Assembly: GCA_032433765.1 (NCBI GenBank)
Contig: JAVIAB010000073.1
Location: 66,892,205-66,956,204 of the forward strand
Direction: 5' to 3'
Length of the DNA: 64,000 nucleotides
DNA from: Megaustenia siamemsis
Taxonomy: Eukaryota; Mollusca; Gastropoda; Stylommatophora; Ariophantidae
Shown: piece by piece, positions 2,937 through 53,948 of the stretch
How the letters are laid out: each line of letters begins with the position of its first letter
Position numbering within the stretch: the first letter of the stretch is position 1
Translations under genes and position numbers: made by a program
The notes under the pieces: generated by a model
The model's input: only the letters and a program-made list of their open reading frames with translations
What the model was told of the DNA's origin: nothing
Databases searched by the model: none

Positions 2937-3179
2937 AGCCAAAATACAAAACAGCCTAAAATAAATTTGAGTTCTTTTTGAATAAAAACAAATTCGGAAA
3001 GCGATCGGTTAATTTTGGATATTGTCCTGCTTGTTATTCTTATTCGGTTCTCTCTTTTGGGATTTTCAGACATTGACGTTTTATCTTTCAACGGTGTATT
3101 TCGCAATGGTTCGCAGCTCCTCAACCAATGAGCCAAATCAGAACCGTTTTTTTTTAAATAGAATGCCACGATTTGTTTA

Positions 3180-3182
<3 letters not shown>
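2937..3182. other. Non-coding, AT-rich
   Basis: No gene or repeat partner was recognised between the LINE end and the CT microsatellite. Confidence 0.4.

Positions 3183-3240
<58 letters not shown>
3183..3240. repeat. (CT)n microsatellite
   Basis: An uninterrupted CT dinucleotide run of about 58 bp. The inverted paralogue at 24.7 kb has a shorter GA run at the same place, so the microsatellite belongs to the dispersed repeat at 3241-3599. Confidence 0.95.
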
Positions 3241-3243
<3 letters not shown>

Positions 3244-3599
3244 ATCAAGACTCAATCAGAGCAGGATTCCAGACTCTCACATGAAGACAGCTGGCTGTCT
3301 AAGTGAATTGATCGATCCCACAGACAGAACATCATAATTAGAGTCTGTTAGATCCATTCTGATTGAGTACCTGTTAAAACGTTACACTGTGTTCTGCGCC
3401 AATGGCCCAGCGCATCCGATTTCAGCCAGCATTTTATTCAGGTTTGCTTTCCTTAGCCTTTGATTGTCCCCAATCTTCCTGCAAGGCAAGAGATTGTCTT
3501 TTCTGTAGGGGGATTCTGCCCTTAGATAGTCGGCCTTCCCAGGTTTACGAGCACCATCTGCCCGAATCACTAGAGGTGACTAACACAGACATGCACACA
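3241..3599 (+). repeat. Dispersed repeat (unit P), copy 1, the target of the large element
   Basis: This block is repeated in reverse orientation at about 24371-24722. Both copies begin next to a CT/GA microsatellite and run into the minisatellite built on GACTAACACAGACATGCACA. Here the minisatellite is cut after its first partial unit by the 11.46-kb insertion and resumes at 15056. No protein is recognised; short open frames on both strands differ between copies. Confidence 0.8.
3594..3599. repeat. Target site duplication, left copy (CACACA)
   Basis: CACACA here and at 15056-15061 directly flanks the inverted arms. Joining the left flank to the sequence after the right copy gives ATGCACACACAAAG, which is exactly the reverse complement of the unoccupied paralogous site near 24.36 kb. 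Confidence 0.85.
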
Positions 3600-3639
3600 A
3601 GTAGTATATATCCAGTGAAAGGATGCGTAAAAGTGCGTT

Positions 3640-3955
3640 CAAACGCTCATAAATCCTTATATAAATAGTCTACACGCAGATCAACGCACAATTTTTGGTG
3701 CGGTTTTTCCTTATATGAGAGTCTTCATTTTTTCTTATATGAGAGTCTACCCGCCCATTTTGGTTCCGGTGACCTCTCGTTGACCTCTCAACCTCTCGTG
3801 GTGTTGTGAAGGCGTCGAAACGCACCTAATTCCTTATATAAATAGTCTACACGCAGATCAACGCACATTTTTTTTTCCTTATATGAGAGTCTACCGTTTT
3901 TCCTTATATGAGAGTCTACCCGCCCATTTTTGTTCCGGTGACCTCTCGGGTGACC
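3640..3955 (+). promoter_or_regulatory. Subterminal tandem duplication with TATA-like boxes (left)
   Basis: CCTTATATAAATAGTCTAC followed by ACGCAGATCAACGCACA occurs twice (about 3655 and 3832). Each is followed by copies of CCTTATATGAGAGTCTAC and a GGTGACCTCTCG tract. The TATA-like words all point inward. This looks like a duplicated terminal promoter or protein-binding region; function is inferred. Confidence 0.4.
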
Positions 3956-5216
3956 TCTCGTGGCGGTGGTGGTGGTGTTGTGGTGACCTCCCGCGGCGGT
4001 GGTGAAGGGGTGGTGAAGGGGCGGCGGTGGTATCATAACTTTCACATTCTTTGTACTTTCAATGGTTCCGTAACTTTCATAAATCTATTCTTTCTTTATA
4101 CTCTCAGGCAATAAAAAACAGTGACAAGTTTATTTATTGTTTTAAAAACTTCCTTTAGAATTAAAGGTAACAACTTAGGCCGTTACACACGCTACACGAA
4201 GGTACATTACCGAACTTAGTAACTACACGGCGTTTAACGTTAAGCGAGATCAAAGAGTTACCGGTAGACGCGCAGCCGCGAAGACGCGCAGCAAGGGGCC
4301 GCAAGATCAAAGAGCTCGGTAGATGCGCAGCGAAGACGCGCAGCGAAGACGCGCAGCGAGGGGGCCGCGTTTAACGTTAAGCGCGATCAAAGAGTTCCCG
4401 GTAGACGGACCGCGTTTACATCAAAGAATCCGCCTCCCGTGGTGAAATCTCCGTAGCCGGTAAGTGTTCATCAAGAGAGTCATTCAACAGGGGAATTTTA
4501 CGATACCGATGTTTTAATGTGAGACGCTTGGGGGTAATTTACAGTGACAAGTTATTTATTTATTGTTTTTATTCGTATATATCCCACAATAGATAACACA
4601 GGGGTAGACAATAATGTAGTCTTTAACTATTGCACATTATAGACAAGTATAATACATAAGAAACAAAGTAGTTTATTTACAAGAAGTAATACATGATACT
4701 GTTAAATTGCTAAAGGGGAGGTGGTCACGTTGTTCAGAATGGACCTGTCGCTTGCTGGGGTGAGGTAGTAAGTTGGAAGTTGTAGTTGTAGAGGTAGCTG
4801 GTTGTGGAGGTAGTTGTAGTAGTGAAAGTTGTAGTAGAGCAGGGGACGACGTTCAAATTACGTTACTCCCAAATCCACGAAATCTTAGACTTTGGAGTTC
4901 TATATCTTTAGCACTTCAACGAATAACAGACAACAGTAATGGTGAACCTTACAGATAAGAAAACTTAGTTCCAAACCCCAAAAGTTCGTCCCATAACTAA
5001 AAAGTTGAACTCAAAACATTAAAAATCTAGGTCCAAAGTCAAAATAGTTAGACACGGTAGGGCAAAAGGGCATATTCTTTCCAACCAATACTCCCTATTC
5101 TTCTACACATCTGCATCTCGAAGCCTTCGAATTTATATTCAATATTTGGCTATTGACTATATTTTGCGCCGATTGCGCAGAGTCGATTCTATATGCAACC
5201 ACTGAACTCTCTGTCG
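3956..5216. other. Non-coding arm segment with GC-rich repeat block
   Basis: GGTGGTGGT-type tracts lie at about 3960-4030. GACGCGCAGCGAA repeats and two AACGTTAAGCG words lie at about 4225-4440. A GTAGTTGTAG/GGTAGTTG tract lies at 4770-4850. No convincing protein was found; the sequence is mirrored at 13440-14700. Confidence 0.6.
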
Positions 5217-5722
5217 ATGTAGTAGACACGTATGTCATGTCAATGTAACAGTCATGTCAATGTAACAGTCATGTCAATGTAATGGTCATCTCGTTGTAAC
5301 AGACACGTATGTCATGTCGTTGTAACAGACACGTATGTCATGTCGTTTTATCAGAGACGTATGGTATGTCGTTGTAATAGCCATGTCGTTGTATCAGTCA
5401 TGTCGATGTAGTAGACACGTATGTCATGTCAATGTAACAGTCATGTCAATGTAATGGTCATCTCGTTGTAACAGACACGTATGTCATGTCGTTGTAACAG
5501 ACACGTATGTCATGTCGTTTTATCAGAGACGTATGGTATGTCGTTGTAATAGCCATGTCGTTGTATCAGTCATGTCGATGTAGTAGACACGTATGTCATG
5601 TCAATGTAACAGTCATGTCAATGTAACAGTCATGTCAATGTAACAGTCATTTCGTTGTAATAGTCATCTCGTTGTAACAGTCACGTATGTCATGTCGTTT
5701 TATCAGAGACGTATGGTATGTC
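5217..5722. repeat. Minisatellite, about 26-bp units (left arm)
   Basis: Irregular copies of GTCATGTCGTTGTAACAGA with CACGTAT. A block of several units is duplicated here relative to the right arm (13103-13441), which accounts for the 171-bp arm length difference. Confidence 0.9.
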
Positions 5723-6345
5723 GTGATGGACGAATGTAGATTGTCGACTGTGTCATGATGGATCATGTAGGTTGTCGACGGTGCCATGATGGACGAATGT
5801 AGGTTGTCGACTGTGCCATGATGGATCATGTAGGTTGTCGACTGTGCCATGATGGATCATGTAGGTTGTCGACTGTGTCGGGATGGATCATGTAGGTTGT
5901 CGACTGTGCCATGATGGTTGTATGTAGATTGTCGACTGTGTCGAGATGGATGAATGTAGGTTGTCGACTGTGCCATGATGGATGAATGTAGGTTGTCGAC
6001 TGTGCCATGATGGATCATGTAGGTTGTCGACTGTGTCGAGATGAATCATGTAGGTTGTCGACTGTGTCGAGATGGACGAATGTAGGTTGTCGACTGTGCC
6101 ATGATGGATCATGTAGGTTGTCGACTGTGCCATGATGGATCATGTAGGTTGTCGACTGTGCCATGATGGATCATGTAGGTTGTCGACTGTGTCGAGATGG
6201 ATGAATGTAGGTTGTCTAGTGTCTCATGATGGTTGTATGTAGGTTTTCTAGTGTGTCGGGATGGCTGAATGTAGGTTCTGTCTAGTGTGTCGTGATGAGT
6301 GTATGTAGATTGTCTAGTGTGCCATGATGGTTGTATGTAATTGTC
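5723..6345. repeat. 31-bp minisatellite (left arm)
   Basis: About 20 copies of a 31-bp unit containing GTAGGTTGTCGACTGTG and CCATGATGGA. Because 31 is not divisible by three, long pseudo-reading frames run through it in several frames. Units nearest 6345 resemble the end of the adjacent zinc-finger coding sequence, which looks like the seed of the array. Confidence 0.95.
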
Positions 6346-6439
6346 GAGTATGCTCCAACAAATCACCGCGCCATTTAAACTTCTTTGAACATAATGGACA
6401 CGGATGTTCACCAGAAGAAACCTCATTATGAGAAACTAT
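6314..6439 (-). pseudogene. C2H2 zinc-finger exon, left-arm copy with start codon lost
   Basis: Mirror of the intact 41-residue frame at 12387-12512. The finger CPLC...H-x4-H remains, but the position matching ATG reads ATA (CAGATAGTT rather than CAGATGGTT on the minus strand), so this copy lacks the start available in the right arm. It faces outward, away from the Bcl-2-like gene at 6944. If the exon is reached by splicing from an upstream exon with another start, the change would be a simple Met-to-Ile substitution. Confidence 0.5.
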
Positions 6440-6943
6440 CTGGAGAAAATCCAATAACCCTTTCCTCAACCATATTTAACATACCTAGTTTAACTTCATC
6501 AAACATCAAGCTCAACAATACTTAGCATACCTACTTTAAACACCTCGATAAAATTGAATAACCTTTCATCGATAAGCCTTAACGTACTTTAAGAGAAAAC
6601 AATCCAACTTACTGTGTAAAATAGAATCTCAATCCGTTAGAATGAATAGTAACTTTCCTTGAAGCAACCAAACTTATAACACGAAAGCCCTGAAGGGTCT
6701 AGTTTAAATATATCCTGGTAACAAATGAATACATTATCCAATCAGCGAGTGACTATGCCAACATCGACTGATATCTGGATTAACCAACCAGAGAAGAGTA
6801 TTAGCATGGGAGGCGGAGCAAAGAAATGACTGACATCTGTATTATAACCATTCAGAAAAGAGCATTACTATGAACGGCAGAGTGATTAACCAATTATAGA
6901 AGAGCGTAACTTTGAAAACGGTTCCAGTTCCATCTTAAGGTAA
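6440..6943. promoter_or_regulatory. Divergent intergenic region between zinc-finger exon and Bcl-2-like gene (left)
   Basis: About 500 bp separates the outward zinc-finger exon from the inward Bcl-2-like gene. It contains the TTTAAATATATCC TATA-like word (about 6703-6715), a possible zinc-finger leader exon and near-repeats of AACCAxxCAGAxAAGAG. A shared bidirectional promoter is inferred. Confidence 0.4.
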
Positions 6944-7513
6944 ATGAATTGGTCGGGTTCTCATCGAGGATCGTGGGCGTTTCTGGTCCATAGAATGTGT
7001 TTGGATAAACTTATGAAGGAGTTTATGTTCCTGGGGGTTGATATTATTCATACATATGATAAGACGTGTAAGAAACATTCCAAGTTTTATAAATCTATGG
7101 CTAACCTAGTATATACATTATCGGAGAGAAATGAGCTGTTATTTACTGGAATAATTCAGAGAGTCGGTGGTCATGATATCTACGCCACGTTTGTAACCAT
7201 CGTTATCGAAATACTTTCAGATCGAATTCGCAATTTCGGTCGTCTTGTTGTTCTATATACCCTCGCCTATCGATTAGTTAAGAATCATGTTAAAGACATG
7301 TTCGACTCTGATTCCGACATTTGTACTTTAGAAACGGACTTTGGTACTTGGACCGGTGGTATCATCGGAAGAGAATTTGGAGAGTGGTTACTAAAAGAAG
7401 GTAGTTTGGAAAATTTTCTAGACCTCTCTAACGAAGAAGCTACAACACTGTGGACTCTACTTCGCAACAGCCTTTGGTCTTTAAGAGCTTTACCTATAAA
7501 TGTTTATCTGTGA
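6944..7513 (+). CDS. Bcl-2-like protein, left-arm copy
   Basis: Intact 189-residue frame starting at an ATG in the context GGTAAATGA. A BH1-like region at residues 89-108 contains NFGR (family consensus NWGR) followed by a hydrophobic helix. A BH2-like region at 136-159 has W136, GEW at 146-148 and F158, matching the W...(G)GW..F pattern. A weaker BH3-like segment, LMKEFMFLGVDI, lies at about 23-34. Family members bind BH3 helices of pro-death partners at mitochondria or ER and usually block apoptosis. No C-terminal membrane anchor is present; TGTGAGT right at the stop could be a splice donor leading to one. Differs from the right-arm copy only at residue 51 (Ser here). An AATAAA lies 21 bp after the stop. 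Assignment is by motif reading, not database search. Confidence 0.7.
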   Translation: MNWSGSHRGSWAFLVHRMCLDKLMKEFMFLGVDIIHTYDKTCKKHSKFYKSMANLVYTLSERNELLFTGIIQRVGGHDIYATFVTIVIEILSDRIRNFGRLVVLYTLAYRLVKNHVKDMFDSDSDICTLETDFGTWTGGIIGREFGEWLLKEGSLENFLDLSNEEATTLWTLLRNSLWSLRALPINVYL

Positions 7514-7533
7514 GTTTATATATTTTTTTCCCT

Positions 7534-7539
7534 AATAAA
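7534..7539 (+). terminator. Polyadenylation signal AATAAA after Bcl-2-like gene (left)
   Basis: AATAAA lies 21 bp downstream of the TGA stop at 7511-7513 and is conserved in the right arm at 11287-11292. Confidence 0.55.
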
Positions 7540-8110
7540 AGTTTGGTAACCCAACAGCATTTGTTACTGCCTTACAATATTGTTTACCAGGTCACGACAC
7601 CCTCTCACACTGATGATGAGGGTTGTCCTGTAGTAGGCCTGTGATTGTAATAAGAATGGTTTGCTCCAGCTTTGAAATCTGAAATTTTCACAAAAAGAGA
7701 TGGTGTTACTCAGTTCCCCTATAATGGGGATGTTGAGTTACTAAAAATAGATTTTGATCTCTGATGCAATACCTGATTAGTTACTAAAAATTGAATGTGA
7801 CCTATGATCCAATAACAGAATACTCATTGCACTGGTGACCAATTGAGACTGATGGAAAAGTGAATTCCCAGTCATAGAAAAGTATGTTGTCACGATAGGT
7901 GTGTCAATAACAAGGAACAAAAATCATTAAAGACATCCTAATTAAGTTGTGAAATTTTGGTGGTTGAGAGATAAATCTGAAGATAAGCACATCAAACTAT
8001 AAGAACAAGGAAACAATCGTATATTACACACTCTTAGAGCCAGTGTTAAGGTAACACGTATTTAGTTAAAATAGAAGGTTATAAATTGAGTAGAGGTAAA
8101 CTTATACCTT
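7540..8110. other. Non-coding inner arm segment (left)
   Basis: No protein is recognised. The sequence is mirrored at 10716-11286, where it lies upstream of a leftward gene, so the segment probably contains that gene's promoter. In this arm the first ten codons (8111-8140) are present but then run into unrelated sequence and a stop. Confidence 0.5.
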
Positions 8111-8140
8111 ATGGCTCATCTACTTTTTCGAATAAACTCA
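8111..8140 (+). pseudogene. Orphan 5' end of the arm-spanning gene (first 10 codons)
   Basis: ATGGCTCATC...AATAAACTCA encodes MAHLLFRINS, identical to the start of the gene at 10715. After the arm boundary it reads LKLK then stop. It shows that the arm boundary falls inside the coding sequence of the right-end gene. Confidence 0.6.
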
Positions 8141-8335
8141 TTAAAATTAAAATAAGTCAAATAAAAACAAACAAATATGATCTTTATATAATGTTTATTT
8201 TCACAATAAAACTAGACAACACATGTTACACGTTCAAATATTTATAATTGAACAACGATGCTTTAAATAGTGCAAATATGGATACAAATCATCTGAAAAA
8301 GTACACATATAACAACATAGTCATGTGTTTAATGC

Positions 8336-9120
8336 TTAAATTACAAGTTTACGTGGTCTCCCCCGTGGTTTTTTAAATACACAAGGATCGCAAAATTTAA
8401 CACAATTTTGTTTATTGTTCTTAATAGCATAAGATCCATCAATTATATTAGTGATCGAACGGGGATCAATTCGTTTGTGAGCTGTGTCTGTGAGAACAGT
8501 CGAAAGGTTACTCTGTTGATACTGGAAGTCGTCATAAACAGGAGGAGCAGCAAACGACCACTCACCCTCATTGGCTGTTTGTTCTCGGGCATAGTCTGAG
8601 CGAAATGTAGATGTTCCATCAGTAATTGGTTGTACACCGTCACACTCCGCTGAGAGAATTGTAGACGCCTGGAAGTCGTCATAAACGGGAGGAGCAGCGA
8701 TCGACCACTCACCCTCATTGGTCGTTTGTTCTCTGTCATAGTCTGAGCGAATGTAGATGCTCCATCAGTGGTTGCTTGTATACTGTCACACTCAGCTGAG
8801 AGAATCGTAGACGCATCACCTGTGGCTACTCGTAGTCTGTCACACTCTGAGAGAATCGTAGACTTCAGACCCACTAAAGTCTCAAATTCAGGCTGTGTTA
8901 GTGTTATACCGTAACGTGTTGGGAATTTCAACCCCGTTTTGCCATCGTATTTTCTAAGATGAATTAAAGTCTTTGCTCGATATCTCGAAACTGAGACAGC
9001 CTTCAAACCATTCTTCTGTAGAGGCTTTACATACTCGACATTACGAGCGGCATAGAAAAAAGCACCATCACAATCAACATTAACAGCGGAATCACACATA
9101 TCCATTCTAACGGACTCCAT
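8336..9120 (-). pseudogene. PC4/p15-like DNA-binding protein with PPxY repeats and AT-hook tail, one frameshift
   Basis: Start chosen at the ATG at 9118-9120, downstream of a TATA box, rather than the longer open frame from 9207 that would begin upstream of any likely cap site. Residues about 38-88 match the PC4 (transcriptional coactivator p15) ssDNA-binding fold: KAVSVSRYRAKTLIHLRKY, then GLKFPTRYGITLTQPEFETL. After it come two tandem repeats (about 8545-8820), each with an AAPPVYDDFQ segment containing a PPxY motif, and a basic AT-hook-like C-terminus with GRPRK before the TAA at 8336-8338. A one-base difference in a short A run near 8750 (absent from the second repeat) shifts the frame, so the natural frame ends early, at 8443. 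Could be a real lesion or a base-call error. PC4 proteins act in the nucleus on transcription and repair. Confidence 0.6.
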
Positions 9121-9190
9121 TCTAAAAAGCACACGACTTGGTAGCAGGGATCTGACTTTCTGTATGTAGCAGCACTGAGAACGGCTGCCC

Positions 9191-9259
9191 TTTATACCCT
9201 GTAACAAGGGGGCGTGGTCAGTCTATTTATAGTAACCAATGGAATACGTTCTATTTATA
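9191..9259 (-). promoter_or_regulatory. Promoter region of the PC4-like gene
   Basis: On the minus strand there are TATAAA (9191-9196) about 70 bp before the ATG, a GC-rich CCACGCCCCC box (about 9209-9218), and two upstream TATAAATAG words (9223-9231 and 9251-9259). A CCAAT word on the plus strand lies at 9236-9240. An AP-1-like TGAGTCA lies further upstream at about 9320. Confidence 0.5.
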
Positions 9260-9509
9260 GTAACTGATGCAATACGTCATTGGACGTGATGAGACATGTT
9301 CAGAGAGCGGCCATCTTTGATGAGTCATGGGAAGTTTGTTCCACGAAGCCGATGTATCCATGGAGTCATCAAAACAAATGATGATCCAGAGGGCGGGGCC
9401 TACACTGACAAGTTGGAGACAAACTCGAGTATAGCATGTTATGCTCATTAGAGGGAAGTGTTCTTGTGAACACAGGATTGGGCTTGGCAAGTAAAATATC
9501 AACTAAACT

Positions 9510-9713
9510 TTAGTTTCTATTACTTCTGAAATACTTTTTTAGAATCTTGGCTCTGTGATCAATAGCTAGGATGGGGGAAATAATTTTGCCACATTCTTGT
9601 ATACGGTTTATGAAGCGCTCCTTGTCTATAGAAAACTGCTGCAAAGAATAATTGGGTTCGTCATTTTCATCATCGTGGATTGTTAAAACAATCGTTTCTT
9701 CACAAAAATGAGC
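9510..9713 (-). CDS. Exon 2 (terminal) of unidentified element gene
   Basis: Open frame of 67 codons preceded on the minus strand by a pyrimidine-rich acceptor ending TTTCTTCTAG (9714 inward). It joins in frame to exon 1 at 10320, giving a predicted total of 199 residues across both exons. The segment is acidic near its start (HDDENDE) and then helical and basic (KERFINRIQECGKII, later ILKKYF), ending at TAA 9510-9512. No family is recognised. Confidence 0.5.
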   Translation of the reverse strand, partial: AHFCEETIVLTIHDDENDEPNYSLQQFSIDKERFINRIQECGKIISPILAIDHRAKILKKYFRSNRN

Positions 9714-10319
9714 CTAGAAGAAACGAGACAATTTAGGTTTAAAAGCCAGCAAAAACTTCTAAATGAAAAACACTTTATAATAAAATATCTCTGCACAACT
9801 CTGTAGCTGATGTCATTTCTCTTTGTTTCCCTCTGTCTTTTCACCCCTCACGTTTTCAAGTTGGTACAAGTTATTACAGCGGTTCTCATTACAAGTCACA
9901 ACATCCAAGTATTGGATATCTCTTTCGCTTCTCACCTAGTAACCTATTGTCCATGAGTCTCTTGGGTAATTTAAACCTGCTTCTACGTAAAATTTACTCT
10001 ACTCCACCTCCAGAGGATAACACTTCAAAAGATTTACCAGTATTAATATTATTCCACTTGTCTTTTTCTTTGATGTTGCAGTTACTTCTTTATGGTATCA
10101 AGGATGAGTCCTTTATTTTTTCGGTTTCCTTTACTATAACGTCAATCATTACTAGCAACTAGTTTCACAATTTTCATTACATGTGGAAATTTACTATTTA
10201 TCATCATCAATAAAGATAATGTCTCTACTAGTTGTGTAATAACCCAGTAATAAAGATAATGAAGGCGAAACAGAATATCAAAATCAAAAGGTAAACTCGA
10301 CTCCAAAGCAATTACTTAC
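9714..10319 (-). other. Predicted intron of the two-exon element gene (606 bp)
   Basis: Begins with an excellent donor (AAG|GTAAGT at 10319) and ends at a pyrimidine tract plus TAG (9714). Both sides are phase 0. No other gene is recognised inside; short plus-strand frames at 9947-10162 look incidental. Confidence 0.55.
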
Positions 10320-10715
10320 CTTGGTAGCTCTATCGTTTAGTGTATCACTTTGCTGGCTGCAAGCGTATTGTTCGTTCCACGTTGCGTTAATTTGTTCAAA
10401 ATAAATATCATGTTCAAAGATTTGTATATCTCTATTACCAGTCGAGGAGTGGTTGTTAATTATTTCAGTTGGAATCTCCAGTCTTCCAGCTCCCTGATTT
10501 TGAGAGCCGGTGATGTAGGTGTCAGAGGTTTCACTAGAGTTTAAAAACCTTTCACGTATATTTGTCTTTTTGAAAATTGAGTCTAAAGTTAAACCATTAT
10601 TAAAATTACCACTAGGCCATATTGTCGTGGTTTGCGTGCTCATTGACACATCACTATCTTCATCACTGTCTTCCTCTTCTGAACTTGAGTTTATTCGAAA
10701 AAGTAGATGAGCCAT
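10320..10715 (-). CDS. Exon 1 of unidentified element gene, starts inside right arm
   Basis: Codes 132 residues from MAHLLFRINSSSEEEDSDED, a strongly acidic Ser/Glu/Asp-rich N-terminus, to a perfect donor AAG|GTAAGT. The first 30 bases lie in the inverted arm and the rest in unique sequence. The middle is rich in Thr, Ser, Asn and Gln and looks disordered. A TATAAA word at 10741-10746 on the minus strand is only about 26 bp before the ATG, implying a very short leader. An acidic activator or scaffold is possible, but no family is recognised. Confidence 0.55.
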
Positions 10716-11286
10716 AAGGTATAAGTTTACCTCTACTCAATTTATAACCTTCTATTTTAACTAAATACGTGTTACCTTAACACTGGCTCTAAGAGTGTGT
10801 AATATACGATTGTTTCCTTGTTCTTATAGTTTGATGTGCTTATCTTCAGATTTATCTCTCAACCACCAAAATTTCACAACTTAATTAGGATGTCTTTAAT
10901 GATTTTTGTTCCTTGTTATTGACACACCTATCGTGACAACATACTTTTCTATGACTGGGAATTCACTTTTCCATCAGTCTCAATTGGTCACCAGTGCAAT
11001 GAGTATTCTGTTATTGGATCATAGGTCACATTCAATTTTTAGTAACTAATCAGGTATTGCATCAGAGATCAAAATCTATTTTTAGTAACTCAACATCCCC
11101 ATTATAGGGGAACTGAGTAACACCATCTCTTTTTGTGAAAATTTCAGATTTCAAAGCTGGAGCAAACCATTCTTATTACAATCACAGGCCTACTACAGGA
11201 CAACCCTCATCATCAGTGTGAGAGGGTGTCGTGACCTGGTAAACAATATTGTAAGGCAGTAACAAATGCTGTTGGGTTACCAAACT
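10716..11286. other. Non-coding inner arm segment (right)
   Basis: Mirror of 7540-8110. It lies between the 3' end of the right Bcl-2-like gene and the start of the arm-spanning gene. Apart from a TATA-like word at 10741-10746, nothing is recognised. Confidence 0.5.
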
Positions 11287-11292
11287 TTTATT
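11287..11292 (-). terminator. Polyadenylation signal of right Bcl-2-like gene
   Basis: AATAAA on the minus strand, 21 bp past the stop; mirror of 7534-7539. Confidence 0.55.
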
Positions 11293-11312
11293 AGGGAAAA
11301 AAATATATAAAC

Positions 11313-11882
11313 TCACAGATAAACATTTATAGGTAAAGCTCTTAAAGACCAAAGGCTGTTGCGAAGTAGAGTCCACAGTGTTGTAGCTTCTTCGTTAGAG
11401 AGGTCTAGAAAATTTTCCAAACTACCTTCTTTTAGTAACCACTCTCCAAATTCTCTTCCGATGATACCACCGGTCCAAGTACCAAAGTCCGTTTCTAAAG
11501 TACAAATGTCGGAATCAGAGTCGAACATGTCTTTAACATGATTCTTAACTAATCGATAGGCGAGGGTATATAGAACAACAAGACGACCGAAATTGCGAAT
11601 TCGATCTGAAAGTATTTCGATAACGATGGTTACAAACGTGGCGTAGATATCATGACCACCGACTCTCTGAATTATTCCAGTAAATAACAGCTCATTTCTC
11701 TCCGATAATGTATATACTAGGTTAGCCATAGCTTTATAAAACTTGGAATGTTTCTTACACGTCTTATCATATGTATGAATAATATCAACCCCCAGGAACA
11801 TAAACTCCTTCATAAGTTTATCCAAACACATTCTATGGACCAGAAACGCCCACGATCCTCGATGAGAACCCGACCAATTCAT
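11313..11882 (-). CDS. Bcl-2-like protein, right-arm copy
   Basis: Intact 189-residue frame, inward-facing mirror of 6944-7513, with the same BH1-like NFGR (97-100), BH2-like GEW...F (146-158) and weak BH3-like segment. The only protein difference is Ala51 instead of Ser51, so both copies are under the same coding constraint or have been homogenised by conversion. No membrane anchor is visible. Two full copies per element double the gene dose if both are transcribed. A cellular origin (captured host gene) is plausible but unproven. Confidence 0.7.
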   Translation of the reverse strand: MNWSGSHRGSWAFLVHRMCLDKLMKEFMFLGVDIIHTYDKTCKKHSKFYKAMANLVYTLSERNELLFTGIIQRVGGHDIYATFVTIVIEILSDRIRNFGRLVVLYTLAYRLVKNHVKDMFDSDSDICTLETDFGTWTGGIIGREFGEWLLKEGSLENFLDLSNEEATTLWTLLRNSLWSLRALPINVYL

Positions 11883-12386
11883 TTACCTTAAGATGGAACT
11901 GGAACCGTTTTCAAAGTTACGCTCTTCTATAATTGGTTAATCACTCTGCCGTTCATAGTAATGCTCTTTTCTGAATGGTTATAATACAGATGTCAGTCAT
12001 TTCTTTGCTCCGCCTCCCATGCTAATACTCTTCTCTGGTTGGTTAATCCAGATATCAGTCGATGTTGGCATAGTCACTCGCTGATTGGATAATGTATTCA
12101 TTTGTTACCAGGATATATTTAAACTAGACCCTTCAGGGCTTTCGTGTTATAAGTTTGGTTGCTTCAAGGAAAGTTACTATTCAATCTAACGGATTGAGAT
12201 TCTATTTTACACAGTAAGTTGGATTGTTTTCTCTTAAAGTACGTTAAGGCTTATCGATGAAAGGTTATTCAATTTTATCGAGGTGTTTAAAGTAGGTATG
12301 CTAAGTATTGTTGAGCTTGATGTTTGATGAAGTTAAACTAGGTATGTTAAATATGGTTGAGGAAAGGGTTATTGGATTTTCTCCAG
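11883..12386. promoter_or_regulatory. Divergent intergenic region with possible leader intron (right)
   Basis: For the outward zinc-finger gene there is a TATATTTAA word at about 12114-12122, a donor-like ACA|GTAAGTT at 12214, and an acceptor-like TTTTCTCCAG ending at 12386, immediately before the zinc-finger ATG. This suggests a 173-bp intron in the 5' leader. The other side drives the Bcl-2-like gene. Confidence 0.35.
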
Positions 12387-12512
12387 ATGGTTTCTCATAA
12401 TGAGGTTTCTTCTGGTGAACATCCGTGTCCATTATGTTCAAAGAAGTTTAAATGGCGCGGTGATTTGTTGGAGCATACTCGACAATTACATACAACCATC
12501 ATGGCACACTAG
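12387..12512 (+). CDS. Small C2H2 zinc-finger protein, right-arm copy
   Basis: A 41-residue frame starts at ATG directly after a splice-acceptor-like CAG. It holds one finger: C-x2-C (CPLC), 12 residues, then H-x4-H (HTRQLH). It stops at TAG as the 31-bp minisatellite begins. Its last 31 bases match the minisatellite unit, so the array probably arose by tandem duplication of this gene's 3' end and may have truncated a longer multi-finger protein. Single fingers can bind DNA or protein; role unknown. The left-arm copy has lost this ATG. Confidence 0.5.
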   Translation: MVSHNEVSSGEHPCPLCSKKFKWRGDLLEHTRQLHTTIMAH

Positions 12513-13102
12513 ACAATCTACATACACTCATCACGACACACTAGACAGAACCTACATTCAGCCATCCCGACACACTAGAAAACCTACATACAACCATCAT
12601 GAGACACTAGACAACCTACATTCATCCATCTCGACACAGTCGACAACCTACATGATCCATCATGGCACAGTCGACAACCTACATGATCCATCATGGCACA
12701 GTCGACAACCTACATGATCCATCATGGCACAGTCGACAACCTACATTCGTCCATCTCGACACAGTCGACAACCTACATGATCCATCATGGCACAGTCGAC
12801 AACCTACATTCGTCCATCTCGACACAGTCGACAACCTACATTCATCCATCATGGCACAGTCGACAACCTACATTCATCCATCTCGACACAGTCGACAATC
12901 TATATACAACCATCATGGCACAGTCGACAACCTACATGATCCATCCCGACACAGTCGACAACCTACATGATCCATCATGGCACAGTCGACAACCTACATG
13001 ATCCATCATGGCACAGTCGACAACCTACATTCGTCCATCATGGCACCGTCGACAACCTACATGATCCATCATGACACAGTCGACAATCTACATTCGTCCA
13101 TC
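12481..13102. repeat. 31-bp minisatellite (right arm)
   Basis: Mirror of 5723-6345, about 20 units containing CACAGTCGACAACCTACAT. Units nearest the zinc-finger exon read CACACTAGACAATCTACATA and are the closest to the finger's coding sequence. Confidence 0.95.
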
Positions 13103-13441
13103 ACGACATACCATACGTCTCTGATAAAACGACATGACATACGTGACTGTTACAACGAGATGACTATTACAACGAAATGACTGTTACATTGACATGACTG
13201 TTACATTGACATGACTGTTACATTGACATGACATACGTGTCTACTACATCGACATGACTGATACAACGACATGGCTATTACAACGACATACCATACGTCT
13301 CTGATAAAACGACATGACATACGTGTCTGTTACAACGACATGACATACGTGTCTGTTACAACGAGATGACCATTACATTGACATGACTGTTACATTGACA
13401 TGACTGTTACATTGACATGACATACGTGTCTACTACATCGA
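13103..13441. repeat. About 26-bp minisatellite (right arm, contracted)
   Basis: Mirror of 5217-5722 but with one block of units fewer, the source of the 171-bp arm difference. Confidence 0.9.
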
Positions 13442-14704
13442 CAGAGAGTTCAGTGGTTGCATATAGAATCGACTCTGCGCAATCGGCGCAAAATATAGTC
13501 AATAGCCAAATATTGAATATAAATTCGAAGGCTTCGAGATGCAGATGTGTAGAAGAATAGGGAGTATTGGTTGGAAAGAATATGCCCTTTTGCCCTACCG
13601 TGTCTAACTATTTTGACTTTGGACCTAGATTTTTAATGTTTTGAGTTCAACTTTTTAGTTATGGGACGAACTTTTGGGGTTTGGAACTAAGTTTTCTTAT
13701 CTGTAAGGTTCACCATTACTGTTGTCTGTTATTCGTTGAAGTGCTAAAGATATAGAACTCCAAAGTCTAAGCTTTCGTGGATTTGGGAGTAACGTAATTT
13801 GAACGTCGTCCCCTGCTCTACTACAACTTTCACTACTACAACTACCTCCACAACCAGCTACCTCTACAACTACAACTTCCAACTTACTACCTCACCCCAG
13901 CAAGCGACAGGTCCATTCTGAACAACGTGACCACCTCCCCTTTAGCAATTTAACAGTATCATGTATTACTTCTTGTAAATAAACTACTTTGTTTCTTATG
14001 TATTATACTTGTCTATAATGTGCAATAGTTAAAGACTACATTATTGTCTACCCCTGTGTTATCTATTGTGGGATATATACGAATAAAAACAATAAATAAA
14101 TAACTTGTCACTGTTAATTACCCCCAAGCGTCTCACATTAAAACATCGGTATCGTAAAATTCCCCTGTTGAATGACTCTCCTGATGAACACGTACCGGCT
14201 ACGGAGATTTCACCACGGGAGGCGGATTCTTTGATGTAAACGCGGTCCGTCTACCGGGAACTCTTTGATCGCGCTTAACGTTAAACGCGGCCCCCTCGCT
14301 GCGCGTCTTCGCTGCGCGTCTTCGCTGCGCGTCTACCGAGCTCTTTGATCTTGCGGCCCCTTGCTGCGCGTCTTCGCGGCTGCGCGTCTACCGGTAACTC
14401 TTTGATCTCGCTTAACGTTAAACGCCGTGTAGTTACTAAGTTCGGTAATGTACCTTCGTGTAGCGTGTGTAACGGCCTAAGTTGTTACCTTTAATTCTAA
14501 AGGAAGTTTTTAAAACAATAAATAAACTTGTCACTGTTTTTTATTGCCTGAGAGTATAAAGAAAGAATAGATTTATGAAAGTTACGGAACCATTGAAAGT
14601 ACAAAGAATGTGAAAGTTATGATACCACCGCCGCCCCTTCACCACCCCTTCACCACCGCCGCGGGAGGTCACCACAACACCACCACCACCGCCACGAGAG
14701 GTCA
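13442..14704. other. Non-coding arm segment with GC-rich block (right)
   Basis: Mirror of 3956-5216: GCTGCGCGTCTTC repeats at about 14285-14400 and a GGTGGT-type complement at 14630-14700. No gene recognised. Confidence 0.6.
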
Positions 14705-15015
14705 CCCGAGAGGTCACCGGAACAAAAATGGGCGGGTAGACTCTCATATAAGGAAAAACGGTAGACTCTCATATAAGGAAAAAAAAATGTGCGTTGATCT
14801 GCGTGTAGACTATTTATATAAGGAATTAGGTGCGTTTCGACGCCTTCACAACACCACGAGAGGTTGAGAGGTCAACGAGAGGTCACCGGAACCAAAATGG
14901 GCGGGTAGACTCTCATATAAGAAAAAATGAAGACTCTCATATAAGGAAAAACCGCACCAAAAATTGTGCGTTGATCTGCGTGTAGACTATTTATATAAGG
15001 ATTTATGAGCGTTTG
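14705..15015 (-). promoter_or_regulatory. Subterminal tandem duplication with TATA-like boxes (right)
   Basis: Mirror of 3640-3955; two CTATTTATATAAGG words (TATA on the minus strand, pointing inward) at about 14810 and 14988. Confidence 0.4.
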
Positions 15016-15055
15016 AACACACTTTTACGCATCCTTTCACTGGATATATACTACT

Positions 15056-15061
15056 CACACA
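15056..15061. repeat. Target site duplication, right copy (CACACA)
   Basis: Second copy of the 6-bp duplication flanking the element; see 3594-3599. Confidence 0.85.
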
Positions 15062-15527
15062 CAAAGATATGAGATGTGACTAACACAGACATGCACACAA
15101 CGATATGAGGCATGACTAACACTGACACACACCAAGATATGAGATATGACTAACACAGAGACACTAACACACATTCAGATATGAGATATGACTAACACAG
15201 AGACACTAACACACATTAAGATATGAGATGTGACTAACACAGACACACTCTAAAATATGAGATATGACTAACACAGATACACACACTAAGATATGAGATA
15301 TGAATAAACACAGTCATGCACACACAAAGATATGAGACATGACTAACATAAACATGCACTCACAAAGATAGGAGATGTGACTGACACAGACATGCACACA
15401 CAAAGGTATGAGATATGACTAAACACAAACACACAAAGATATGAGACATGACTAACATAGTCAGACACACATTAAGATATGAGATGTGACTAGCATGGAC
15501 ATACACACAAATACATAAGACATGACT

Positions 15528-15530
<3 letters not shown>

Positions 15531-15578
<48 letters not shown>
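15531..15578. repeat. (AT)n microsatellite
   Basis: Uninterrupted TA dinucleotide run embedded in the minisatellite. Confidence 0.95.
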
Positions 15579-15585
<7 letters not shown>

Positions 15586-15660
15586 TAAATGTATGAGATA
15601 TGACTAACATAGACATGCACACAAAGATATGAGATATGACTAACACAGACATGCATGCAC

Positions 15661-15828
15661 AAGTCTTACATGGGGACGTTTTACCTCATTCAATTCTCAG
15701 CACATGATCGATGCATTTCCAAGGCATTTTTCTTATAAACCTCGACACATATTTTGTTCCCTATTTTATTATTAAATGCTAAATGTAACAATAAGTAAAG
15801 TAGGGAATAAATGTTCATTATCAGGCGA
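15661..15828. other. Spacer, nothing recognised
   Basis: Short unique sequence between the minisatellite and a LINE 3' end. Confidence 0.4.
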
Positions 15829-16292
15829 TACTAACATTAAAACAAATAACACCAGGGCTAAAGCTAAGAATAGCAAAATGTTATATCTTCTCAACATTCC
15901 TTCATGCTGCAGAAATATGGACATTAGACAAGAAAACAGAACAGAGAATTGAAGCCTTTGAAATGTGGATATATAGAAGAATAGTAAGAATTAGGTGAAA
16001 AGAAACGAAAACAAACGATGAAGTCTTAAAACAACTAAAAATGAAAGGAGAACTATTAAATGCAATTCAAACAAGACAAATAAGATTTTTGGGGCATGTT
16101 AAAAGATACAACACCCTACTGAAAATAAACTTGGAAGGGAAAATACAAGGTAAAAGCGGCAGAGGCAGACCAAGACTAACATGGACGAGTAACATCAAAA
16201 GATGAACAAGTCAGCCTAATACAACCTGCACCATCAAAGCAAGAGACAGAGCGGAGTGGCGCTCCATGGTAGCCAACCTTCGATGCGGAGAC
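15829..16292 (+). mobile_element. Family A (RTE-like) LINE 3' fragment
   Basis: 5'-truncated copy covering the last part of the RT ORF: the segment equivalent to GAETWTLDKKTEQRIEAFEMWIYRRI, then RQMRFLGHV and GKxGRGRPRLTWTSNIKR. Stops (for example TGA after RIR near 16000) make it non-coding. It ends with the family's GCCAACCTTCGATGCGGAGA signature and a TTATTATTAATA tail, consistent with the simple-repeat 3' tails of RTE elements. Confidence 0.85.
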
Positions 16293-20923: not shown

Positions 20924-22162
20924 CTCCTCCTCTTCTTCTTCGTCGTATTCTACTTCAGGAAATGGGTAGCTGACCACCACGTTGCAGCATTCTTATTTTT
21001 GGGCCTGAGGTTGGCATTGACGGAGTGATACTTACTATCATGATGTGACAGGTATTTATGATGCTGCATAAATACCGTTAGAGAATCGTCGTCCCAAGTC
21101 TACGGTCACTTTTAAGCTCATTGAGATAAGACGATTATAACGAAAAGTTGGACACTATACCGTGCTATCACGAAATCAGACGGATTTGGTTTGTGCTGTT
21201 TAATTGGTTACCAACATTTTTTTAAAGGATATTAAGTGACTGAAAGTCCATGACTCCAGACAAATACATAGACACAGTAAGTTTTAATAAATAATGAAGT
21301 GTGTGCACGGGGATAACTCTAATAATTTGGTAGCTTTGTTTACGCTTAACTGATTTCTCTTATTTACATTCTGGTGCCCTATCAAAGAGGTGTTATTAGA
21401 CTGTTGTCCACAGTTCTTCTTTGGCTTTTTATGGCTGTAGTCTTCAAATCATTAGATCCTTCTAGCAGGTCAAACGTGACGTCTCCTGAAGTATATGTTT
21501 AGTAGTTTATGCGAAGCTCGTTCTTTGACGGTAACGTTCATACATTTACTATTTTGTATTCGAAACTTTCTACGTCGGACATACTTGTGTAAGGTAGCAC
21601 CAAGCGAAATGATGCGCCCACAACGCGTGTTTGTGTCGATAGTTCACACAACGCGTGTTGGTGTCGATAGTTCACACAACGCGTGTTTGTGTCGATAGTT
21701 CACACAACGCGTGTTGGTGTCGATAGTTCACAGTTCTTATATTTTAAAATGTACTTGTAGTTCTTCAGTCTAACGCCAGCAGGGGCTCGAACATTCGACA
21801 TGATTGTCCAACTTTTCAAACGATAATTGGTCCTGACCTCTAGGTAGAGAATTCTCTCGAGGTATTACTTTCTACCGGGACTATATTTCAGTCTTTGTTT
21901 TCAGATGAAAGTTAGTTCTTATTCTCCACATGGTCATGGGACGCACCAAAATGGACGCTTCCTGCGTCCAAGCCATGTAAACATTGTTGACTTTCCTTGA
22001 CTTCAACTGTTTATCTCATTCTATTAGAGAATTTCATGCTATCTGTTACCACAGTGAGTTGGCGGATTTTTTTGAAATGTAATCACGGGTTTGATAATAA
22101 ATGTGTGTACACAGTTCGTTAACCATCGCTGTAGATCAAGTCTTTATTCGCTGGCTTCGTTA
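20603..22162. other. Intergenic, no gene recognised
   Basis: A pyrimidine-rich CTTCTTCTT tract lies at 20880-20950 and a 26-bp minisatellite at about 21610-21732. The rest is unassigned. A promoter or signal-peptide exon for the EGF-like gene downstream might be here but cannot be pointed to. Confidence 0.4.
21610..21732. repeat. 26-bp minisatellite
   Basis: About 4.5 copies containing ACACAACGCGTGTTTGTGTC, with GTTTG and GTTGG variants alternating. Confidence 0.9.
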
Positions 22163-23545
22163 GCAACCATGGAAGCTAATGACCTTACTTGTGGCGACGG
22201 TTGGTTTGGGGCAAACTGTACGTTACAATGTCACTGCTATAATGACTTAGTTTGTGACAAAACTACAGGGACATGCCCAAACAATGACAGTTGTCAGCAC
22301 GAATATTTTGGACCCCAGTGTCAGTACTTGGATCTCATTTACAAATACGCCCAAAAATCTGAACCTACTTTCCTGTTTGATAACAACTACACCACATGTA
22401 ATCCGGACATAGATTCTACATCAGTTGAGGCAACTCTCAATCAATCTTTGCCGTTCTCCTGGTTTAGGATTTATGTAATTGACTTAACATATCCAGACAG
22501 TTTCACGGTAAAACTAAATGGTTCTGCCTCATGTAACAATGTATCACGGTTTGTAGTTAGTCCGCACGAGATTGATGTCTTCTGCTCTGGGGCTGGTCTG
22601 ATCAACAAGTTACGGATTGAAGGGGCGATAGTTGCTAATATCTGCTCCATCTACATTGGCTGGGGTCGGAAAGTGGCTCTCAAACAGATCACAAACCAGA
22701 CCGACACATTTGATGCTTGTTATACAGGAGACAGATGTGGACCAGAGGCCGCAGTTAATAGCAAAACAAAGACCAATCTCTATGACAATGACTGCACACA
22801 CATACAATGGAGAAGTGGAACCAATTCTGTTTACTGGTATCTGAACTTTGCAACGCCCCAGAAGACTCACACCATTCGAATCTATCATCGTGCTAGCACT
22901 ATGATTCGGGTAAAGAATGCCACTCTAAAGGCTTTCTCTGACAGTGACGGAGTAGTATTCCAGTATAATGATATATCATACCCTAATTTATCTGTGAACA
23001 CTAGTGTAGTCAAAACACAAACGCCAATGGCACACATTAAGATTGAGTTCTCACCGACCATTTCGCAGGCCGACAGTGCACTGACGGTATGTGAGGTGCA
23101 AACATTTACAGACACCTAATGTCTGGACGAGCATTCTTGGTCGTTTTGTGCAATGTGTAGTGGGTGTAGTAAATGCTGCAATGTCATCATCGGTACTTGT
23201 CACGGCAACTGTTCACATGGGATCTATGGACACGACTGTTCCGGGTCTTGTCTCAGTGTCTGTCCTTTATTTGAGGAAAAGTCCGGAAAATGCCTACAAT
23301 GTAAACATCTTGGCTATACCTGTAATGACACTTGTCCCGATGGTAATTTTGGGCTACAGTGCGAACAGATGTGTTCTGATGGCTGTGACATCATATGTAC
23401 TCACAAATGTCCGGACAACTGTTTCAACGACACATGTGAACAGTCAATCGGGAAACTGTACATGCAACAGAACGTTCTATGGGTCAGACTGCACTCTCAA
23501 ATCTCCGGACAACTGTTTAACTAAACCTGTGATTCCCACGTTCAG
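22163..23545 (+). pseudogene. Multiple EGF-like domain protein with lectin-like repeats, broken
   Basis: Reads from DLTCGDGWFGANC (an EGF-like Cys pattern) through a long beta-rich extracellular region with many N-glycosylation sequons. Two segments resemble F5/8-type-C/fucolectin-like domains: CNPDID...FSWFRIYV, and AAVNSKTK...YWYLNFATPQKTHTIRIYHR. Cys-rich EGF-like repeats follow (CSGSCLSVCP, CNDTCPDGNFGLQC, CTCNRTFYGSDC). Proteins of this layout are expanded in gastropods and act at the cell surface or in haemolymph. An in-frame TAA at 23117-23119 precedes the EGF block (open again in the same frame), and a one-base shift near 23440 breaks the last EGF repeat. No signal peptide is visible, so 5' exon(s) are missing or far upstream. 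Likely pseudogene or fragment; sequencing errors are the alternative. Confidence 0.7.
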
Positions 23546-23624
23546 AAGAGTCTGCCGACTACAACAAGCCCAAGCATATGGACACTTTAATGTGTTTCTG
23601 TGCTAGACATGGTTTATTTCTTGG

Positions 23625-53095: not shown

Positions 53096-53313
53096 GAAGA
53101 TATTTATAGGGCGAGGGTGATGGTTCCTGACAAGGATGTCGGGCAAACTGCGGTCACTTTTTCATGGATCAGAAGATCATATCCTTGATCCTCAAAGAAG
53201 ACTGACTAGTTCAAGCCCATTTGTGTGTCAGTAAAGCTTCAACATGCATTGCTTTCGCTTTCTTTACCTTCATAATTAATTAATATAAAATATGTTGTAT
53301 TTTTTTTCCATAG

Positions 53314-53948
53314 TTTTGATCATCCTGGCTATATGGTTTCTGAGCGTGCTGTGGTCTATCCTGCCTCTGGTAGGTCTTGGGGCCTACCGCCTTGAAGGGA
53401 TGGGAACCTCGTGCACTTTCAACTACATTGATCGAAGCTACTCCCAACGCTGGTTCTTCTTGAGCCTCGTTGGCTTCAACTTCTTTGTTCCTCTGCTCGT
53501 GATTGTCTTCTCTTATAGTCGAATATTTACATACGTCAAACATGTTAAGAAGGAAGTCAAATGTTTACAGAGGGAGCACGATAGTTCTGTAGCAAGAAAA
53601 CGAATAAGAAGAAACGCTGAAACGAAAACAGCTTTAGCAGTACTTTTAATTATCTCCATCTTCTGTACAGCATGGACACCATACGTTATTATCGCATTTG
53701 TAGGTCTGTTCGGACCTGACGGGATCATTAATCCTCTAATGTCAATGTTTCCAAATATTCTGGCAAAAGTCTCCACAGTTTTCAATCCAATTTTGTACAC
53801 ACTTGGCAATAATGATCTGAGGAACAAGCTGAGGTCACTACTGGGCGCCAGCCACCCTAAACGCAACTCGCTGCGTGCCACTTACACTACTGCAGGAAGA
53901 AGCACTAATGAGCAATCACAGGTACAGGAGATACCCTTGCACTTTTAA
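53314..53948 (+). CDS. Opsin, last exon: TM4 to C-terminus with retinal-binding Lys
   Basis: The acceptor TTTCCATAG joins the previous exon in phase (ACT-GTT-TTG). It codes TM4 (VLIILAIWFLSVLW), loop 2 with EGMGTSCTFNY (the disulphide partner Cys and the Glu seen in r-opsin-like receptors), TM5, a basic third loop (VARKRIRRNAETKTA), and TM6 with CTAWTPY. TM7 contains LAKVSTVFNPILY: the Lys is the retinal Schiff-base site and NPxxY is intact. A short tail ends EIPLHF at TAA 53946-53948. Opsins are light-activated G-protein receptors in photoreceptor membranes. After NPxxY the sequence is TLGNNDLRNKL, unlike the HPKYR of canonical Gq opsins, so the subgroup is left open. Confidence 0.92.

Follow-up and report, generated by a model that had tools for sequence, protein, structure and literature searches.

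Panhandle and template-switch events are known in linear DNA viruses, and poxviruses and adenoviruses form defective or fold-back genomes in which the inverted ends are enlarged. Intact vertebrate Mavericks (Polintons) measure 12.7–24.6 kb and have terminal inverted repeats (TIRs) of 46–1,447 bp; their commonest terminal motif is 5'-(AGT)2//(ACT)2-3', accompanied by a 6-bp target duplication, and in most of them accessory regions flank the core modules on both sides (PMC8097293). Adintoviruses are animal-associated, integrase-bearing relatives of Mavericks that a preprint defines by PolB, hexon and integrase (PMC11071296). The PPP1R15/GADD34 family includes two viral proteins, ICP34.5 of the herpesvirus herpes simplex virus (HSV) and DP71L of African swine fever virus (ASFV) (PMC5346070, PMC7615683). 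Mavericks are usually recognised through their core genes, so that an element with Maverick ends and cargo only would escape such surveys. Here we describe an 11.46-kb element in a 64,000-nucleotide stretch of the gastropod Megaustenia siamemsis (GenBank assembly GCA_032433765.1, contig JAVIAB010000073.1, positions 66,892,205 to 66,956,204 of the forward strand; hereafter the window), which is probably a non-autonomous Maverick-ended provirus derived from fold-back duplication of one terminal accessory region.

Ends, arms and insertion site

The element and its boundaries are as follows, with positions counted from the first letter of the window.

3600..15055, whole element, 11.46 kb (~11.5 kb), made up of inverted arms and a unique centre
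3594..3599, unstranded, target duplication CACACA, left copy
3600..8140, plus strand, left arm, 4,541 nt, starting AGTAGT; read as a derived inverted copy of the right end
5075..5164, minus strand, with a mirror in the right arm, short relic of the 3' end of a long interspersed nuclear element (LINE) reverse transcriptase, 71–77% identical to three other sites in the window
5234..6330, unstranded, left-arm tandem arrays of 17/26/60/172-nt and 31-nt families
8141..10685, unstranded, unique centre, 2,545 nt
10686..15055, minus strand, right arm, 4,370 nt, finishing ACTACT; read as the ancestral end
12479..13421, unstranded, mirror tandem arrays of the right arm
15056..15061, unstranded, target duplication CACACA, right copy, which opens a CA-rich satellite array (15056–15662)

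We took (AGT)2//(ACT)2 or (AG)3//(CT)3 as the Maverick/Polinton end motif (PMC8097293) and found AGTAGT at 3600 and ACTACT closing at 15055, the full terminal bases being AGTAGTA at 3600 and TACTACT finishing at 15055. A 6-bp duplication is likewise present as CACACA, in a CA-rich target where a shorter one is possible. The insertion target is a satellite with a unit of ~36–38 nt, and because of its CA-rich composition CACACA by itself is weak evidence, a duplication of 2 or 4 bp also being possible there; 6 bp is the longest duplication that the flanks permit and the best fit. When the flanks were joined with one CACACA removed, the product matched the satellite unit at 15315 exactly across 23 nt; a further unit, at 15614, is two bases shorter. 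These results confirm the sharp ends and CACACA duplication described in an earlier sequence-only reading of this DNA, and the empty site restores a satellite unit. Taken together, (AGT)2//(ACT)2 ends and a 6-bp duplication indicate Maverick integration, as that reading had proposed, and both features are those of published vertebrate Mavericks (PMC8097293).

Alignment of the arms (3600–8140 and 10686–15055) likewise upheld its description of long inverted arms in a complete unit of ~11.46 kb. The arms are near-identical. Among aligned sites, the outer part shows 6 substitutions in 1,600, the inner single-copy part 3 in 1,805 and the tandem-array part 10 in 963, or 19 in all, and one extra copy of the 172-nt tandem unit is present in the left arm only. 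The arms are imperfect mirrors, and the 19 substitutions and the 172-nt unit are evidence against assembly mirroring. The LINE relic has matches at ~15.9–16.0, ~27.9–28.0 and ~29.6 kb of the window, and its presence in both arms suggests that the element had taken up host-type DNA by the time of the arm duplication. No second copy of the element was found in the window outside 3600–15055 by blastn or by tblastn with three proteins, the LINE relic alone being matched, and an Rfam scan of 3000–16000 gave 0 matches at gathering scores.

Coding content of the element

We found a predicted two-exon PPP1R15-like gene that is cut by the arm boundary and was absent from the sequence-only reading.

10320..10715, minus strand, PPP1R15-like exon 1, 132 codons, with an acidic N-terminal part; TATA-like box at 10746
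9714..10319, minus strand, predicted intron, 606 nt, GT-AG, phase 0
9510..9713, minus strand, PPP1R15-like exon 2, 67 codons and a stop, resembling the PP1/eIF2-alpha core of PPP1R15/GADD34
8111..8155, plus strand, truncated start of the gene, situated where the left arm adjoins the centre; 10 codons are shared as far as the junction at 8140 and a stop follows after 14 codons, the frame being read by eye

The predicted intron has a consensus donor and a pyrimidine-rich acceptor, and exon 2 continues in phase 0. Vertebrate PPP1R15 genes have an intron near the corresponding point. Exon 2 matched Pfam PP1c_bdg (PF10488) at E 8.4e-4 over model positions 174–229 of 230, the sole family reported for it at E ≤ 5, and the joined exons gave the same bits, with PF10488 again the sole family at E ≤ 10. 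Aligned with a PPP1R15B fragment, exon 2 scored 59, as compared with 21.8 ± 4.0 for shuffled sequences, 0 of 5000 of which scored as high; the Pfam E-value is the fairer measure, since the PPP1R15B target was picked after a database search. When compared with the published eIF2-alpha-binding motif W...A.DR.RF..RI (PMC5346070), exon 2 keeps D..RF..RI, and the W, the A and the R after D are replaced. Exon 1 has no Pfam match. On these comparisons, the predicted spliced gene is a probable PPP1R15/GADD34 relative.

The right arm contains the TATA-like box, the ATG and the initial 10 codons of the PPP1R15-like gene. The left arm holds the same promoter and 10 codons, but beyond 8140 the sequence is that of the 3' flank of PC4. 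With the PPP1R15-like gene uninterrupted on the right side and severed at the left arm, the former appears ancestral and the latter an inverted copy of it.

The other putative genes lie in the arms and in the centre.

6944..7513, plus strand, Bcl-2-like open reading frame (ORF), left copy, 189 aa; polyadenylation signal at 7534
11313..11882, minus strand, Bcl-2-like ORF, right copy, differing from the left one by a single amino acid
8443..9120, minus strand, PC4-like frame, PC4 domain at ~8872–9009
8339..8764, minus strand, tail in another frame, with 147-nt-spaced repeat units and a C-terminal AT-hook-like motif; polyadenylation signal at 8199
12387..12512, plus strand, single C2H2 zinc-finger ORF of the right arm, 41 aa, PF00096
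6314..6475, minus strand, zinc-finger frame of the left arm, without the ATG found in the right copy

The two full Bcl-2-like copies that the sequence-only reading placed in the terminal repeats were recovered as frames in both arms, the left copy matching PF00452 at E 1.1e-6 (29.5 bits), below the cut-off. Mcl-1 chains were the best solved relatives of this ORF (E 0.0044), and in its BH1 region NFGR stands opposite the Mcl-1 NWGR. The score against the Mcl-1 segment was reached by 0 of 5000 shuffles, and an open frame of the same length arose in 0 of 1000 base shuffles of 6400–8140. Prediction with AlphaFold2 without an alignment gave a mean predicted local distance difference test (pLDDT) score of 40.8, too poor for use. 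Upstream of the ORF, at 6744–6943 and in the mirror, imperfect CCAAT-like repeats seem, by eye, to be present; they are possibly a promoter common to the Bcl-2-like ORF and the divergent zinc-finger frame.

The PC4-like frame matched PF02229 at E 3.3e-8 (33.3 bits, above the cut-off of 25), and two TATA-like boxes lie upstream of it. The earlier suggestion of PC4-like cargo was thus borne out, though the frame is broken near 8.75 kb. The AT-hook-like motif in the tail was recognised by eye, the tail having no Pfam match, and AlphaFold2 without an alignment gave a mean pLDDT of 39.6 for the PC4 region, again too poor for use. For the zinc-finger cargo, also suggested before, a single C2H2 match to PF00096 was obtained at E 0.005, which is weak and below the cut-off, and the left copy is without an ATG.

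To define the coding content, we listed the stop-to-stop frames across both arms and the centre, 203 of which are 30 aa or longer. Pfam was searched with 40 queries from the element, representing 37 distinct frames, three of them queried twice, and the joined PPP1R15-like exons were also rescanned; this set is without frames below ~50 aa and a few of 50–51 aa, without the majority of the tandem-array frames and without the right-arm mirror copies. Bcl-2 and PC4 were matched among the first six frames scanned. At E ≤ 1 there was no match for the frame of exon 1 or for three others that we did not regard as genes, and none of 30 further frames had a match at E ≤ 0.01. The 37 distinct frames were thus free of recognisable polymerase, integrase, ATPase, protease and capsid domains. 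Thus, the Maverick/Polinton core set (protein-primed PolB, integrase, ATPase, capsid and protease) is not represented in the frames scanned, nor, in the same scans, is the PolB, hexon and rve integrase set that defines Adintoviridae (PMC11071296). Having Maverick ends and, in the frames scanned, none of these core genes, the element is classed as a non-autonomous Maverick-ended derivative and not as a Maverick proper. The earlier view that it carries host-interaction cargo without replication, integrase and capsid genes is supported within these scans, and the PPP1R15-like gene adds to its strength.

Origin of the element and rival explanations

The element has Maverick-type ends with a 6-bp duplication and arms that are almost the same, and its predicted spliced gene is interrupted at the left junction only; it is best explained as the fold-back provirus proposed above. 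Its right end would be the ancestral terminus of a larger Maverick/adintovirus-like genome, a Polinton/adintovirus parent being suggested by the ends alone. All that lay beyond PC4 would have been lost from the replicating genome, and inverted copying of its own last 4.4–4.5 kb, through a panhandle or template switch, would have completed the broken side. The core genes (polymerase, ATPase, integrase and capsid) would have been lost in this fold-back event. The rearranged form presumably went through replication and integration as a unit, using the polymerase and integrase of a helper; integration as a unit is probable, because the motif stands at both ends and these have one target duplication in common. 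Most likely, the element works like a defective viral genome that retains its accessory kit.

The cargo may counter host defence. Cell death would be prevented by the Bcl-2-like protein, present in two copies. Translation would be restored by the PPP1R15-like protein, which would direct PP1 to the dephosphorylation of eIF2-alpha, and transcription would be the target of the PC4/AT-hook and zinc-finger proteins. It is possible, but unlikely, that the element is a cooperating satellite of a Maverick or adintovirus, a minimal replicon without core genes that retains, in part doubled, a counter-defence kit of anti-apoptotic Bcl-2, PPP1R15-type eIF2-alpha control and transcription regulators. Such a satellite would owe its persistence to the defence-countering dosage that it supplies and not to interference with its helper, and its kit would be left in the animal germ line.

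The near-identity of the arms is what gene conversion would leave, and the LINE relic in them means that host-type DNA entered the element. Both would suit a history that began with integration of a shorter, ordinary Maverick fragment, whose long arms were then generated within the chromosome through gene conversion or an inverted duplication. We regard this history as quite unlikely, because two outer ends with the motif and one shared duplication are not the normal product of a later chromosomal duplication. Very unlikely, in our view, is a complete autonomous small element of an unfamiliar kind, in which PC4/AT-hook, the exon-1 domain or the zinc finger would be the replication/integration protein and long arms would be normal. 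Such an element would agree with a helper that was not seen, with the binding of single-stranded DNA by PC4 proteins and with an exon 1 and a PC4 tail that have no Pfam match. However, its recognised unique proteins sum to less than ~700 aa and one arm boundary truncates a gene. The ends, moreover, are of the Maverick type, and Mavericks have genes for a protein-primed polymerase and an integrase of retroviral type (PMC2836005, PMC8097293).

Long TIRs with internal tandem arrays also resemble those of Galileo and Foldback (PMC3573991), and a non-autonomous element of another superfamily could be considered, either of this type with long repetitive TIRs or from another family with 6-bp target duplications. 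It is highly improbable, given that (AGT)2//(ACT)2 together with 6 bp fits Mavericks (PMC8097293). Ginger elements, which have integrase-like transposases, make 4–5-bp duplications, and Ginger1 ends are TGTNR (PMC2836005); a Ginger identity was rejected, as the ends are AGT and the best-fitting duplication is 6 bp. There remains only a slight chance that one arm is a mirrored misassembly of the other. Long inverted repeats are difficult to assemble, but the arms are separated by 19 aligned substitutions and the 172-nt unit, and the same terminal motif stands at both ends with the target duplication within distinct flanks; an assembly mirror was judged unlikely on these grounds.

Several points weigh against the fold-back provirus and its proposed cargo. 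The cargo is not wholly intact: the PC4-domain frame and the repeat/AT-hook tail frame are out of register near 8.75 kb, so that either the PC4 copy is broken there or the sequence contains an error, and the left zinc-finger copy lacks its ATG. The PF00452 score of the Bcl-2-like ORF is 1.9 bits under the curated cut-off of 31.4, and the PF10488 score of 19.5 bits is under its cut-off of 26.1. Searched as a single sequence against PDB, the PC4 part reached a PC4 chain at E 0.81, behind ABC-transporter chains at 0.70–0.76. Exon 2 reached the PPP1R15B chain 4v0u_E at E 0.38, over the region of its PF10488 match, and was matched better by an unrelated fusion (E 0.074, with the single stretches insignificant), these being the only two at E ≤ 10. 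The RVxF PP1-docking motif immediately upstream of the core is degenerate, with K and F in place and alanine for valine/isoleucine, and a 150-codon frame like that of exon 1 arose in 2 of 1000 base shuffles of its region. No polyadenylation signal of the two types scanned lies ≤200 nt downstream of the PPP1R15-like gene, and no TATA-like box lies ≤200 nt upstream of the Bcl-2-like ORF. Both the size of 11.46 kb and the arms of 4.4–4.5 kb fall outside the ranges of intact vertebrate Mavericks, TIR length included. Finally, five IMG/VR scans (Bcl-2, exon 2, the N-terminal part and the tail of PC4, and 18 terminal bases) yielded no relative, and none of these viral contigs was seen to combine such ends with core genes; the collection is believed to be poor in animal elements, in which case the negative says little. 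A 21-residue match to a phage-like contig (L001) was taken as chance, the other ORFs of that contig being phage structural by eye.

The surrounding DNA has animal-like features, among them reverse transcriptases and a rhodopsin-type receptor. The segments 2635–2931 and 15823–16119, on either side of the element, are the same sequence in direct orientation and 88% identical; 2635–2931 is part of a LINE frame, and the pair is probably a coincidence of a common LINE family. Long cysteine-rich open frames at 22076–23603 appear EGF/MEGF-like by eye, and the one frame scanned gave only weak Pfam matches, at E of at least 0.06. At 53289–53945 lies a rhodopsin-family seven-transmembrane receptor frame (PF00001, E 9e-24), evidently a host gene.

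Comparison with known systems

If the fold-back origin is confirmed, Mavericks can yield defective-genome-like forms that are mobilised in trans, which would imply real linear-genome replication in animals. They could also carry genes against apoptosis and translational shut-off, like herpesviruses and ASFV, and a GADD34-type gene would occur in the Maverick virus group. Such anti-apoptosis and anti-shut-off cargo would support an infectious, virus-like life of Mavericks, and the exact junctions make each step testable via relatives with the same ends. No paper in the literature searched, which was without Repbase and most subscription journals, names a non-autonomous, defective or miniature Polinton or Maverick. 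Among the matches listed there for GADD34/eIF2alpha together with Polinton, Maverick, adintovirus or mollusc, none contains GADD34. The main text of the adintovirus preprint contains 0 occurrences of Bcl, PC4 or apoptosis (PMC11071296).

The element resembles vertebrate Mavericks/Polintons in its (AGT)2//(ACT)2 ends, 6-bp duplication, inverted ends and accessory genes near the ends. It differs from them in that no polymerase, ATPase, integrase, capsid or protease domain was found, in arms of 4.4–4.5 kb as against 46–1,447 bp and a length of 11.46 kb as against 12.7–24.6 kb, and in its Bcl-2 and PPP1R15-like cargo (PMC8097293). With adintoviruses, some of which are reported to have zinc-finger regulator ('Ziftr') genes, it shares a putative zinc finger, whereas the PolB, hexon and integrase that define them were not found here (PMC11071296). 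Judged by the published motif, the predicted PPP1R15-like protein would resemble HSV ICP34.5 and ASFV DP71L in having a C-terminal core with D..RF..RI and a variable N-terminal part (PMC5346070, PMC7615683). In contrast to these viral proteins, it has a degenerate RVxF, its tryptophan and two further motif positions are replaced, and its gene has a predicted intron and is carried by a Maverick-ended element.

The arrangement as a whole recalls the defective genomes of poxviruses and adenoviruses, in which one end is copied in inverted form to the other, central genes are lost and both replication ends are kept. Unlike those genomes, the element described here is integrated, with a target duplication.

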